From Microbacterium neungamense (GTDB lineage Bacteria; Actinomycetota; Actinomycetes; Actinomycetales; Microbacteriaceae): a stretch of DNA of 64,000 bases. The stretch spans positions 372,001 to 436,000 of the forward strand of contig NZ_CP069717.1 of NCBI RefSeq assembly GCF_024971095.1, written 5' to 3'. Below are positions 53,183-62,472 of the stretch, one piece after another (position 1 is the first letter of the stretch; each line of letters starts with the position of its first letter). Made by a program: the position numbers and the translations under genes. The notes under the pieces were generated by a model, which saw nothing but the letters and a program-made list of their open reading frames with translations, was not told the origin of the DNA and ran no database searches.

Positions 53183-53254
53183 GCCCCGATAGCTCAGTGG
53201 CAGAGCACTTCCATGGTAAGGAAGGGGTCGTCAGTTCAATCCTGACTCGGGGCT
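53183..53254 (+). tRNA. tRNA-Thr (GGT)
   Basis: 72-base tRNA. Acceptor GCCCCGA pairs with TCGGGGC, D-arm AGCTC...GAGC, T-loop AGTTCAATCCT. The anticodon loop ATGGTAA is closed by CTTCC/GGAAG, anticodon GGT at 53215-53217. CCA is not encoded. Confidence 0.95.
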
Positions 53255-53287
53255 CTGGCATCCGCTCTCGCGAGCCGGTTGCATCGC

Positions 53288-53361
53288 GGCGGAGTAGCTC
53301 AGTTGGTGAGAGCGCACGACTCATAATCGTGAGGTCGCGGGTTCGAGTCCCGCCTCCGCTA
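53288..53361 (+). tRNA. tRNA-Met (CAT)
   Basis: 74-base tRNA. Acceptor GGCGGAG pairs with CTCCGCT with one G-T pair at the end, T-loop GGTTCGAGTCC, anticodon loop CTCATAA closed by CACGA/TCGTG, anticodon CAT at 53322-53324. The paired first base suggests elongator rather than initiator; CAT could also be a lysidine-modified Ile tRNA, less likely from the overall sequence. Confidence 0.9.
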
Positions 53362-53369
53362 CGCAGATC

Positions 53370-53480: not shown

Positions 53481-54476
53481 ATGCCCGCCCGTCACGACCT
53501 GATCCAGCACCTGGCGAACGGGAACGAGATCTTCCTCGACGGCGCTCTTGCCACCGAGCTGGAGCGTCGCGGCTGCGACCTCGCCGACCCGCTCTGGTCC
53601 GCCAAGGTGCTCGTCGAGTAGCCCGAGGTCATCGCGGAGGTGCACCGCGACTACTTCGAGGTCGGCGCCCAGTGCGCCACCACCGCCAGCTACCAGGCCA
53701 GCGTGGAGGGATTCTCGGCTCGCGGCATCGACGGCCAGACCGCGCTCGACCTCATCGCGCGCAGCGTGCTCCTCGCGGAGGCGGCGCGTGAGGCGGCCCT
53801 CGACGCGAACCCCGACGGCCCGCCGCTGTTCGTCGCCGGGTCCGTCGGCCCGTACGGCGCCTACCGGGCGGACGGCTCGGAGTACCGCGGCGACTACGAC
53901 CTGACCCGGGACGAGTTCATCGCGTTCCACCGTCCGCGCGCGACCGCGCTGGCAGAGGCCGGCGCCGACGTCCTCGCCGTGGAGACGCTGCCGAAGCTGA
54001 CCGAGGCGCTCGCCGTGGCCACGCTCGCCGACGAACTCGGCATCCCCGCCTGGTACTCGTTCTCCCTGCGCGACGCGCGTCACCTCAGCGACGGCACGCC
54101 CCTCGCCGACGTCGCGCGCGCCTTCGAGGGCCGCCCCAGCGTGGTCGCGATCGGGGTGAACTGCGTCCCCGCCGACCTCGTCACTCCCGCGCTCGAGGAG
54201 CTCGCCGGGCACACCTGGCTGCCGCTGATCGTCTACCCGAACTCCGGGGAGAGCTACGACCCCGTCGCCAAACGCTGGGCCGGTGGCGGTGCATCCGCCT
54301 CGCTCGCCGACCTCGCACCGCAGTGGCGCGAGCGCGGCGCGAAACTCATCGGCGGATGCTGCCGCACCACGCCCGCCGACATCGCTGCACTGGCGGCGGC
54401 CCTGCGTTCCGGCTCCGGCAGGAGCGCTGCAGGGCTAAACTCGGGCCATGGGACTGCAGGTCGACCTGGATCGTGA
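53481..54476 (+). pseudogene. mmuM: Homocysteine S-methyltransferase gene with an in-frame amber codon
   Basis: MmuM-like gene interrupted by TAG at 53619-53621, after residue 46 (KVLVE-stop-PEVIAEVHRDYF). Both sides are in the same frame and otherwise normal. [16 protein letters not shown] is upstream; GVNC and GGCCRTTP, which carry the three zinc-binding Cys, are intact downstream. One substitution such as CAG or GAG to TAG explains it. The enzyme would move a methyl from S-methylmethionine to homocysteine. The 3' end is also altered: after AALAAA the frame runs into foreign sequence (54403-54476), while the apparent original tail now lies at 55749-55777. An ATG or GTG restart around 53640 could give a shortened protein lacking the N-terminal strand. 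Confidence 0.85.
54372..54402 (+). repeat. Left 31-bp direct repeat bounding the MNT-HEPN insert
   Basis: An exact 31-base match to 55718-55748. It is part of the mmuM 3' coding region (PADIAALAAA). It marks the left edge of the lower-GC insert. Confidence 0.9.
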
Positions 54477-54750
54477 AGTGATCGCGCGTATCGCGCGTTC
54501 GCACGCTGTTCAACGCTTGCACGTCTTCGGATCCGCGACCACGTCACGGTTCCGCGAGGAGAGCGATGTGGATGTCCTCGTTGAGTTCCACGCCGGCGTC
54601 CAGGATCCGTTCGACGCCTACTTCGGCTTGAAGGAAGACCTTGAGAAGGTGCTCGGAAGGCCTGTCGACCTCGTGATGGCGAGTGCTGTCCGGAATCCGT
54701 ATTTCCGCGCCCGAGCGGCGGGCGAAGCTCAGGAGATCTATGCGGCCTGA
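54448..54750 (+). CDS. MNT-domain nucleotidyltransferase antitoxin (MntA type)
   Basis: 100-residue minimal nucleotidyltransferase. The signature GSx10DxD is exact: GS at 28-29 and Asp at 40 and 42 (HVFGSATTSRFREESDVDVLV), with a later Asp in RPVDLVM (74). In studied systems MntA attaches AMP to a Tyr in the RX4HXY motif of HepT and so silences it. The following gene has that motif. ATG at 54448 is six bases after TAAACT (54436-54441), suggesting a leaderless message. It overlaps the altered mmuM tail by 29 bases and the HepT start by 11 bases. The GC content is lower than in neighbouring genes. Confidence 0.9.
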   Translation: MGLQVDLDREVIARIARSHAVQRLHVFGSATTSRFREESDVDVLVEFHAGVQDPFDAYFGLKEDLEKVLGRPVDLVMASAVRNPYFRARAAGEAQEIYAA

Positions 54751-55777
54751 CTTGCTCGCGCTGCTGTGGGATGTGCGGGCGGCGTCTGAGCAGATCGCGG
54801 AGTTCATCGAAGGGCTTGATCAGGTCGCATACCTCGCGGATGGCCTCCGGCGGTCGGCCGTGGAACGCCAGCTCGAGATCATCGGGGAAGCTTTGAACCG
54901 TCTTCGAAGACTCGATCCCGAGATGGCTGACCAGATTCCGGAGATCAATCGCATCATCGGACTCCGCAACATTCTCGCCCATGGATACGCGACGGTCGAC
55001 GATGACGTCGTCTGGACAGCGGCATCAACCCGTGTTCCGGAACTTCGTGCGATCGTGCGATTCTTGATCACCGCGGAGCAACGCCGAAGGGACGGCTCTG
55101 TCCTGGGCGACACTGTAGAGGTTCGGGTCTGGTTCGACGGCGACACGGGTACGGAGGACGGGGTTGAACCTCGCGAAGCGCTCATCGCGGGTGAACCCAC
55201 CGAGGCGCTGATACACGCGTTGACAAGGACGTTCGGTCCGCTGTCTCAGAGTCCGTCGGTGGTCGTCCGGGAAGGCCGCGCGACGCGCTATTGGGTGGGA
55301 GTGATCACGGACGATGTGACGCTCGCAGATGCAGCCCGGCTGGCCGACGGTGAGGTCCTGCAGGTCGATGTGCATGGCCGCGGCGGTGACTTCATTCCGC
55401 TGGTGTGGGACGTGGTGCAGGCGGGTCTGACAATCGCGACACTCGTACAGGGCGGGCGTGCAGTCACGCGCGCACTTGATCGCGCGCGCACAAAGAGGCA
55501 GCGTCTCGCTGCCCAGGCATGGGTAGATGGCGGAGCCGACGATCAGCCCCCGATGGAACTTCGGCAAGCCGTCTGCTCTGAGCGAGAGTGGACGCGTGCG
55601 GAGTTCGACCGGTTTTTGGTCTGGATCGAGCCACTGGATCTCGGTTGCTACGGACTCTGGGCTTCGAGAAGATCTCCAGTAACCCCGAAACGTGGAGCGA
55701 CTCACGCAGCAACTGACCCCGCCGACATCGCTGCACTGGCGGCGGCCCGGCGCGAAGGGGCCGCGCCGATAGGCTGA
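54740..55777 (+). CDS. HepT-like HEPN ribonuclease toxin fused to an unknown C-terminal region
   Basis: 345-residue protein. Residues 1-116 are a full-length HepT/DUF86 HEPN domain with the RX4HXY motif RNILAHGY at 76-83 (catalytic Arg76 and His81, AMP-acceptor candidate Tyr83). HepT proteins normally end there. Here the frame continues for about 210 residues of unknown type: VEVRVWFDGDTG (126-137), a mixed strand/helix part to 215, a weakly hydrophobic helix (218-236), a basic stretch RARTKRQR (248-255), and EREWTRAEFDRFLVWIEPLD (281-300). The last 19 residues (327-345) are the displaced mmuM tail. ATG at 54740 overlaps the antitoxin gene; the frame opens at 54683. Toxin identity is firm, the fusion's function unknown. 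Confidence 0.85.
   Translation: MRPDLLALLWDVRAASEQIAEFIEGLDQVAYLADGLRRSAVERQLEIIGEALNRLRRLDPEMADQIPEINRIIGLRNILAHGYATVDDDVVWTAASTRVPELRAIVRFLITAEQRRRDGSVLGDTVEVRVWFDGDTGTEDGVEPREALIAGEPTEALIHALTRTFGPLSQSPSVVVREGRATRYWVGVITDDVTLADAARLADGEVLQVDVHGRGGDFIPLVWDVVQAGLTIATLVQGGRAVTRALDRARTKRQRLAAQAWVDGGADDQPPMELRQAVCSEREWTRAEFDRFLVWIEPLDLGCYGLWASRRSPVTPKRGATHAATDPADIAALAAARREGAAPIG
55718..55748 (+). repeat. Right 31-bp direct repeat bounding the MNT-HEPN insert
   Basis: Exact copy of 54372-54402. What follows it (to the stop at 55775-55777) reads AALAAARREGAAPIG and looks like the original mmuM C-terminus. Confidence 0.9.
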
Positions 55778-55781
55778 ATCC

Positions 55782-56660
55782 GTGCGCATTCGGTTGGACA
55801 TCGCCTACGACGGCACGCACTTCCGCGGCTGGGCGAAGCAGCCGGGCCTGCGCACCGTGCAGGGGGTGCTCGAGGCGGCGCTGGCCCGCATCGTCGGCTC
55901 CGAGGTGCAGTTCGTCGTCGCCGGGCGCACGGATGCCGGGGTGCACGCCACCGGGCAGGTCGCGCACGTCGACCTCGACGACGCGCAGTGGGCCCGCGTG
56001 GAATCGCGGCACGGTCGCGCCGCGCACGATCCCGCCGGATCGATCGCGGGACGGATGCGGGGTGTGCTCGGCGCCTACGCGGACGCCACCGTCACCGCGA
56101 GCTCCCTCGCCCCGGAGGGGTTCGACGCCCGCTTCTCCGCCGTCTGGCGGCGGTACCGGTACCGGCTCGCCGACGCCGTGAGCGGCTACGACCCGCTGCG
56201 CCGGAACGACACCACCAGCATCCGTGGCGAACTCGACGTCGACGCGATGGACGCCGCCGCCCGCACGCTCATCGGCCTGCACGATTTCGCCGCCTACTGC
56301 AAGGGGCGCGAGGGCGCCACCACGATCCGCACGCTGCTCGACTACCGCTGGCACCGCGACGAGGAGGGCGTGCTCGTCGCCGAGGTCAAGGCCGACGCGT
56401 TCTGCCACAGCATGGTCCGCGCCCTCGTCGGCGCGTGCGCGGCGGTGGGGGAGGGGCGCCTCGACGTCGACGACCTGGTGACCCTGCGCGACGCGCTCAC
56501 CCGCACCAGCGAGTTCAAGGTGCTCGCCGCCCGCGGCCTCACCCTGACCGAGGTCGGCTACCCGGCCGACGAGCTGCTCTCCGCCCGCGCCGAGCAGACC
56601 AGGGCCCGCCGCGACCGCGACGGCTCGGTGCCCGGGATGGACCCCGTCGACGACGAGTGA
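55782..56660 (+). CDS. truA: tRNA pseudouridine(38-40) synthase
   Basis: Modifies uridines 38-40 in the anticodon arm of many tRNAs, 292 aa. The catalytic Asp is in VAGRTDAGVHATGQVAH at about residues 46-62. AYDGTHFRGWAKQPGLRTVQ at the start and FCHSMVRALVGACAAVGEGR near 207-226 are family hallmarks. GTG at 55782 is six bases after TAGGCT (55770-55775), so the transcript is probably leaderless; this promoter lies just right of the insert's repeat. In many genomes truA follows rplQ; here it does not. Confidence 0.95.
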   Translation: MRIRLDIAYDGTHFRGWAKQPGLRTVQGVLEAALARIVGSEVQFVVAGRTDAGVHATGQVAHVDLDDAQWARVESRHGRAAHDPAGSIAGRMRGVLGAYADATVTASSLAPEGFDARFSAVWRRYRYRLADAVSGYDPLRRNDTTSIRGELDVDAMDAAARTLIGLHDFAAYCKGREGATTIRTLLDYRWHRDEEGVLVAEVKADAFCHSMVRALVGACAAVGEGRLDVDDLVTLRDALTRTSEFKVLAARGLTLTEVGYPADELLSARAEQTRARRDRDGSVPGMDPVDDE

Positions 56661-56670
56661 CCGGCACTCC

Positions 56671-56757
56671 CCGGCATCCGGAACCCCTGCCCGCCCGGCA
56701 TCCGGAACCTGTGCCCGCCCGGCATCCGGAACCCCTGCCCGCCCGGCATCCGGAAAA
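56671..56757. repeat. Four-copy 24-bp tandem repeat
   Basis: CCGGCATCCGGAAC plus CCCTGCCCGC, copies starting at 56671, 56695, 56719 and 56743, with only a few differences. It follows truA directly. The gap to 56916 contains nothing else recognisable. Confidence 0.8.
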
Positions 56758-56915
56758 CGGAGATCAGTCGGTGTGCCGCCGGCGTGTCGGGCCGGGACAC
56801 GCCGGGCGGGCGCCGGTTCGTCCGGATTTTCCGAAGCAACTCGCCGGTGGTGATTCGTCGTAACACCGTCCAGCCCCTTGCGTCATCCGCGGGACGGGCT
56901 ACTAGCGTGGGCGCC

Positions 56916-62191: not shown

Positions 62192-62472
62192 CGGTCGTAG
62201 AGCGAGCACCGCCGCAGGCGGAGCGAGACGAAACGCGCGCTCCTCCCGGGTCGGCCCCTTCCCGGTCGTTGAGCGAGCGGAGCGAGACGAAACGCGCGCT
62301 CCTCCCGGGTCGGCCCCTTCCCGGTCGTTGAGCGAGCGAAGCGAGACGAAACGCGCGCTCCTCCCGGGTCGGCCCCTTCCCGGTCGTTGAGCGAGCGGAG
62401 CGAGACGAAACGCGCGCTCCTCCCGGGTCGGCCCCTTCCCGGTCGTTGAGCGAGCGAAGCGAGACGAAACGA
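62192..62472. repeat. Tandem array of family B repeats, 59-base period
   Basis: Nearly the whole glmM-downstream gap. Five repeats of GGTCGTTGAGCGAGCG(G/A)A then GCGAGACGAAACGC, joined by CGCTCCTCCCGGGTCGGCCC. The base after GCGAGCG alternates G, A, G, A in the last four copies, so the larger unit is 118 bases. The first copy differs (GAGCACCGCCGCAGGCGG) and the last is cut short at the end of the next gene. No gene or spacer is inside. Confidence 0.9.

Follow-up and report, generated by a model that had tools for sequence, protein, structure and literature searches.

A foreign 1.3-kb segment carrying an MNT-HEPN toxin-antitoxin (TA) pair sits at the 3′ end of mmuM in Microbacterium neungamense, between two exact copies of a 31-bp sequence. 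We read it as an attachment-site-like insertion without a recombinase of its own, and we tentatively put the probability of this reading at just under one half. The window, the whole 64,000-nucleotide stretch that was analyzed, is C1:372001-436000 of a genome of 2,546,128 bp in one contig and contains the following features.

53183-53255, + strand: tRNA-Thr(ggt) (ARAGORN)
53288-53362, + strand: tRNA-Met(cat) (ARAGORN)
53481-54476, + strand: mmuM, homocysteine S-methyltransferase (PF02574, 1.2e-66, on the part 3′ of the stop)
54372-54402, + strand: repeat copy 1, within the mmuM 3′ end (sequence comparison)
54403-55717, + strand: foreign insert, GC 63.0% (composition)
54436-54441, + strand: TAAACT, −10-like box, 6 bp upstream of the MNT start (alignment by eye)
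54448-54750, + strand: MNT, MntA-like antitoxin (PF01909, 7.6e-12; PADLOC PDC-S09, 1.6e-35; GSX10DXD)
54740-55777, + strand: HEPN (HepT-like toxin) fused to domain X, protein P0001 (PF01934, 1.6e-19, residues 15 to 107; RX4HXY)
55070-55716, + strand: domain X, C-terminal part frame-shifted (alignment of relatives)
55718-55748, + strand: repeat copy 2, 1 base past the other-frame stop of X (sequence comparison)
55782-56660, + strand: truA (PF01416, 1.2e-31)

Repeats and composition of the insert

As the initial annotation had stated, the 31-base sequences at 54372-54402 and 55718-55748 are identical; they are direct repeats spaced 1346 bp apart, and an extended comparison agrees at 34 of 35 positions. 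When the window was simulated 20 times with a fifth-order Markov model, the longest exact repeat arising by chance measured 17 to 20 bp, and given this maximum of 20 bp (n = 20), we ruled out a chance origin. Any other exact repeat of ≥31 bp found in the window is of the close tandem kind, with partners ≤180 bp apart. The bracketing score of the insert was 65, against ≤64 for 381 other placements in the window. Allowing ≤3 mismatches, we located the 31-mer at 2 places in its own genome and at none in the 365 other genus genomes searched; a proposed search for other cassettes ending in the same 31-mer therefore yielded no sister cassette in those genomes. Tandem repeats of 24 bp (CCCGGCATCCGGAACC type) were also seen directly 3′ of truA at 56670-56755, with inverted partners at 56801-56819, and at 62218-62430 long exact repeats are arrayed in tandem (period, ∼59 to 63 bp).

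The lower GC content first noticed inside the repeats was borne out, at 63.0% for the insert versus 73.3% for mmuM, 74.4% for truA, and 71.2% for the window, and no 1,315-bp window sampled every 50 bp along the stretch fell below the insert. Third-position GC was 0.73 for MNT, 0.70 for HEPN, and 0.70 for X, compared with 0.93 for mmuM and 0.96 for truA. The open reading frames of the insert are MNT and HEPN-X, and no transposase match was found among the frames scanned. An insertion sequence or transposon was rejected, as 0 of 23 inverted-repeat pairs join both ends of the insert.

The mmuM and truA sides of the insert

Repeat copy 1 does lie within the mmuM 3′ end, as annotated at the outset. 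Codon 47 of the gene is an in-frame TAG (53619-53621), where the protein of relatives reads on, and the mmuM frame continues past copy 1 into the insert; with this stop and the insertion at its end, mmuM looks like a pseudogene. Some match to mmuM was found in 171 of 366 genus genomes, with identity of ≥70% in just 4 genomes other than its own.

What follows copy 2 had been taken for the original mmuM C terminus (REGAAPIG), which we could not uphold: REGAAPIG* extends into the truA promoter, and the mmuM tails of the four closest relatives read ALGL, ALRG, ALRA, and ALRSRAPRGR. With both copies scored alike, the tail in genome G349 scored 47 on copy 1 versus 35 on copy 2, the tail in G014 did not discriminate between them (35 versus 34), and the remaining two gave no gene-end match or equal scores. 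Pointing the other way, toward copy 2, the box GATAGGCT comes after the G349 mmuM tail and likewise after copy 2; it is also present upstream of truA in many relatives, and is probably a promoter. The truA upstream region is variable among relatives except for a TAGGCT-like box.

Genome G014, the one relative in which mmuM and truA were mapped together, keeps the order peptidase, tRNA-Thr, tRNA-Met, and mmuM, and lacks the cassette. Its truA lies 22 kb beyond mmuM (C1:1516471-1540033; L087 and L088), compared with 1.4 kb in the window, a difference that marks the two species as separated by a large deletion or some other large rearrangement. No second mmuM end was found in G014, and around the four closest mmuM genes, flanks of 1.5 kb gave no match to truA. 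At the truA loci of 29 relatives, mmuM gave no blastn match and the 31-mer nothing closer than 7 mismatches. The empty site anticipated by the initial annotation, with one 31-bp copy joined to REGAAPIG, was not found among the genus genomes compared, nor was a genome in which mmuM adjoins truA and the cassette is missing; both repeats with the TA genes absent, held there to speak against an insertion, were also not encountered.

The MNT-HEPN pair

Pfam matches confirmed that the repeats enclose an MNT gene and a HEPN gene. The GSX10DXD motif of MNT and the RX4HXY motif of the adjoining HEPN are both intact, and MNT leads, the arrangement that defines MntA/HepT; the HEPN frame overlaps the MNT gene (54740 versus 54750). 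Both proteins scored below the NCBIfam equivalog cutoff of 60 bits (NF047752 and NF047751; 47.6 and 33.5 bits), so we class the pair as MntA/HepT-like and not as an equivalog. Functional roles of the two motifs in MntA/HepT are described in the cited part of PMC7641770. Judged from its motifs, and in line with that system, the HEPN protein should be an RNase silenced by MNT through AMP transfer. MNT-like proteins are common (1,618 at E ≤0.001), and named relatives at 59 to 67% among the best 120 of the 1,618 include Microbacterium and Agromyces. Four related loci (L126 to L129) have a TACACT box at the position equivalent to the TAAACT box of the window (alignment by eye).

Domain X

Beyond about residue 107, the HEPN frame continues into X, whose relatives are stand-alone proteins. 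A profile search that scored 8,000 candidates recovered at least 7 X proteins including our own; with the copy from strain Gd 4-13, there are at least 7 distinct relatives, of 209 to 211 residues, the one from M. enclense being listed as 179 residues. They are present in genus genomes G050 and G058 and in Microbacterium records. Among the X proteins found, only our own is fused to HEPN, and no MNT or HEPN domain was found near X in loci L003 and L004 or, by tblastn, in the 10-kb loci L085 and L086. Direct repeats of ≥20 bp were absent from L085, L086, L005, and L006. Beside the stand-alone X gene of M. enclense (L086, 5799-8212), we observed two long open reading frames on the opposite strand, which could, as an impression only, be accessory or defense genes.

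X had no match in Pfam, NCBIfam, or PHROGs, and comparison with solved structures gave five weak matches (best E, 0.03). One phage record matched residues 2 to 117; 81 plasmid records matched, the best 30 of the 81 extending to residue 175 at most. A structure model of the relative P0005 (9 sequences; mean pLDDT, 87.2; pTM, 0.82) has the order strand-strand-helix-strand-strand-helix-strand, then helices, then helix-strand-helix-helix-strand-strand. Judged from element order alone, a ubiquitin-like fold may come first, with a winged helix behind it. X is a rare protein family without an earlier description.

The X of the window is frame-shifted in the winged-helix part, and the residues matching the end of the family are read in another frame, whose stop at 55714-55716 comes 1 base before repeat 2; the HEPN frame itself passes through repeat 2 and ends at 55777. 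This X is probably damaged. A single assembly error is an unlikely cause, because the same 341-residue protein is counted on 2 contigs, the longest of which (2,551,932 bp) differs from our genome (2,546,128 bp).

Related MNT loci at RNA gene ends

We compiled 47 related loci, made up of 19 MNT hits from other genomes of the genus (E ≤4.2e-9) and 28 family loci. In the genus scan, 70 of 366 genomes had some MNT match at 1e-3, and hits with E >5e-7 were left out; in the family scan, 28 of 398 genomes, our own included, matched MNT at 1e-8, and one family row (G579:C36) has no locus. With MNT starts extrapolated from alignments, 8 of the 47 loci have MNT starting ≤260 bp past the 3′ end of a same-strand tRNA or tmRNA gene, compared with 6 of 3,577 control positions on the same stretches. 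The Fisher value of 1.2e-12 overstates this enrichment, because control positions overlap, the 260-bp cutoff was post hoc, the starts are extrapolated, and some loci are near-identical. The MNTs of L128 and L129 and of L173 and L174 are near-identical, leaving ∼6 independent cases. The other 39 loci do not begin within 260 bp past an RNA gene end.

Three of the eight (in G310, G350, and G115) lie 59 to 60 bp past a tRNA-Met that follows tRNA-Thr, the same pair as in the window. The others follow tRNA-Ser (G689 and G571, at 250 and 119 bp), tmRNA (G579, 77 bp), tRNA-Lys (G724, 30 bp), and another tRNA-Met (G473, 5 bp). Farther tRNAs stand 547 bp (G410), 663 bp (G750), and 867 bp (G459) upstream of MNT, and in G718 the same tRNA-Met/Thr pair lies ∼500 bp downstream, facing the cassette. 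A tRNA-Arg call in L131 was discarded as spurious because it overlaps MNT. A search for the empty site of the G350 tRNA-Met cassette gave short, scattered matches in addition to the tRNA.

In the window, MNT starts 1,086 bp past the tRNA-Thr/tRNA-Met pair, with mmuM in between. By path length in the MNT tree, the nearest to the window's are L126 (0.74) and L127 (0.76), then L128, L176, and L129 (0.88); the tree is weak in its deeper branching, and L142 to L144 sit on a very long branch. Since cassettes at the tRNA-Met site are thus among the closest MNTs, and the pair of G310, G350, and G115 stands directly behind the same tRNAs, the window's pair could have resided first at the tRNA-Met site, until a rearrangement interposed mmuM and left the end of that gene behind in a second copy. 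We consider this very unlikely: G014 has tRNA-Met followed by mmuM and no cassette, there is no clear tRNA-Met copy after the window cassette (best score, 25), and the second mmuM end stays unaccounted for.

Duplicated ends around related cassettes

Using a fixed span, a bracketing direct repeat with a score of ≥50 was found at 5 of 46 loci, compared with 27 of 3,542 control placements (P = 4e-5); L147 was left out for insufficient flank, and this cutoff and the RNA-distance cutoff were both set after inspection of the data. The 27 control hits are spread over six loci, and L142, L136, L144, and L143 among these carry such repeats of their own. With measured HEPN ends, the counts were 5 of 19 loci versus 9 of 1,051 controls for the genus and 1 of 27 scored loci for the family. 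One of at least 81 control placements in the family test scored 690, and tandem duplications can therefore yield false positives. The bracketing repeat is absent from the other 41 of the 46 loci, and 4 of the 5 bracketed under the fixed span are copies of a gene or RNA end. The repeats were as follows; helicase-like, glycosylase-like, and REP-like are our presumptive labels, given from the appearance of the sequence.

L128: tRNA-Met 3′ half copied, 73 bp, 78%
L150/L177: tmRNA 3′ end copied, 42/46
L136: 3′ end of a helicase-like gene copied, 198 bp, 80%
L142: 3′ end of the neighboring HepT-like gene copied, 135/155 (155 bp, 87%)
L144: 5′ end of a glycosylase-like gene copied, 111 bp, 81% (measured-end test only)
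L138: REP-like sequence, 60 bp

L144 is bracketed with measured ends and not under the fixed span, and the second copy in L143 lies >1 kb off. The score of L142 varies with the HEPN end chosen (210 versus 27), because the copied end is itself the end of a HepT-like gene. In the same genome (G208; L142, 4898-6874, MNT-forward), we observed two different MNT-HEPN pairs in tandem, the second sitting between the 3′ end of the first HEPN and the copy of that end.

The tRNA-Met copy of L126 and that of L128 start within the HEPN-side reading frame, to which they supply the last residues and the stop, the HEPN proteins ending in THDSSS* and AHDS*, respectively. Several cassettes have decayed, as the L128 HEPN is split across two frames and no HEPN was matched in L129. 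In L126, the tRNA-Met 3′ half at the HEPN gene end (∼1690-1735, MNT-forward) has no tRNA-Met match on the left side; it is a displaced or half-deleted site.

The copies in L136 (198 bp, 80%) and L142 (155 bp, 87%) are long and diverged, exceeding a typical att core. Such copies would fit a single crossover, in which a circle carrying the cassette and the end of its target gene recombines by homology to give gene, cassette, and orphan gene end. For the window this seems improbable, as 31 bp is a short homology for RecA recombination, and single crossovers by themselves leave the RNA gene ends unexplained.

A recombinase-free alternative is illegitimate repair, with a TA fragment captured at a break past mmuM by end joining or template switching and 31 bp of the mmuM end copied to the far side in the process. 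The genome has a Ku gene, the 31-mer occurs nowhere else in the genus set, and the insert ends 1 base past the other-frame stop of X, all of which suit such a capture. We nevertheless think it rather unlikely, for it leaves unexplained why related pairs lie past the ends of tRNA and tmRNA genes and are flanked by duplicated ends.

Recombinases and mode of entry

The window contains no PF00589 (tyrosine recombinase) match; in this family, the genome has four, at 752, 1111, 1180, and 1712 kb of C1, the nearest >300 kb away. Among the matches listed for the 32 cassette-bearing genomes, only G384 has PF00589 within 10 kb of MNT (8 kb). A tblastn search near the cassettes with the four recombinases of our genome as queries, two of which were wrong-frame reading frames, found nothing.

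The cited part of PMC5704250 describes att direct repeats of 8 to 60 bp for tyrosine-recombinase elements, which insert at the 3′ ends of tRNA and housekeeping genes and more rarely at 5′ ends. The window layout matches this description; the exceptions are L136 and L142, whose copies are long and diverged. In the attachment-site-like reading, a foreign MNT-HEPN(-X) element would have entered at the mmuM 3′ end, next to the tRNA-Thr/tRNA-Met insertion hotspot, and 31 bp from the end of mmuM, present in duplicate, would bound it in the manner of attL and attR. The element may have lost its recombinase, as a CIME-like remnant, or may have been moved by a tyrosine recombinase in trans. Because no empty site was found, the mechanism could only be inferred, and the cause that we infer is site-specific recombination. 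Entry of this kind without an integrase of the cassette's own, as put forward in the initial annotation, fits the placements of the related loci; the empty-site comparison that was to accompany it gave no empty site. Against the attachment-site-like reading are also the lack of a second 31-mer site in the 365 other genus genomes, a copy 2 flank that is not clearly mmuM, and the REP-like nature of the L138 repeat.

The gene-end placement of related pairs suggests a small mobile unit that borrows an integration enzyme. A broader proposal is doubtful: that MNT-HEPN pairs of Microbacteriaceae are minimal mobile cassettes (0.7 to 1.3 kb) without their own integrase that use tRNA, tmRNA, and protein-gene ends as attachment sites for different recombinases in trans. 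The copied end would sometimes provide the toxin C terminus and stop, and the window copy would also have captured a ubiquitin-like and winged-helix partner.

Relation to known systems and significance

TA pairs are known cargo of integrase-encoding islands. A CIME, as described in the cited part of PMC5704250, has lost integration and transfer genes and retains attL and attR. The window element resembles one in its short direct repeats at a gene 3′ end, with one copy within the target gene end, in accretion at a tRNA hotspot, and in having no integration genes of its own (PF00589 search of the window; MNT and HEPN-X the only insert frames). It differs in being just 1.3 kb with one TA operon and putative att ends, and our searches turned up no parent element that shares its ends. 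TA-carrying integrative elements such as SGI1 at trmE and IMESag-rpsI likewise combine a gene 3′ end target with TA cargo, but in the cited part of PMC5704250 this type encodes a tyrosine integrase, and none was found for the window element. The pair shares the MNT-then-HEPN order, Pfam families, GSX10DXD, and RX4HXY with the MntA/HepT (type VII) system in the cited part of PMC7641770, and differs in the fusion of HEPN to X and in both scores under the NCBIfam cutoffs. HEPN fused to other conflict-system domains is described in the survey PMC3710099, and the window HEPN likewise bears an accessory domain, but no X-like partner appears in the cited part of that survey. Integrase-less MNT-HEPN cassettes at gene ends were not described in the literature titles and abstract openings searched. 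The placement of related MNT genes at RNA gene ends and between duplicated ends is new.

The HEPN-X fusion is a pointer to an undescribed protein family. The TA pair is seemingly the whole element, with ∼6 independent placements at RNA gene ends, several with duplicated ends, and hardly any integrase nearby among the matches listed. If they are moved in trans, such TA pairs are satellites of integrative elements, and this movement, if true, would account for the spread of very small TA modules between chromosomes.
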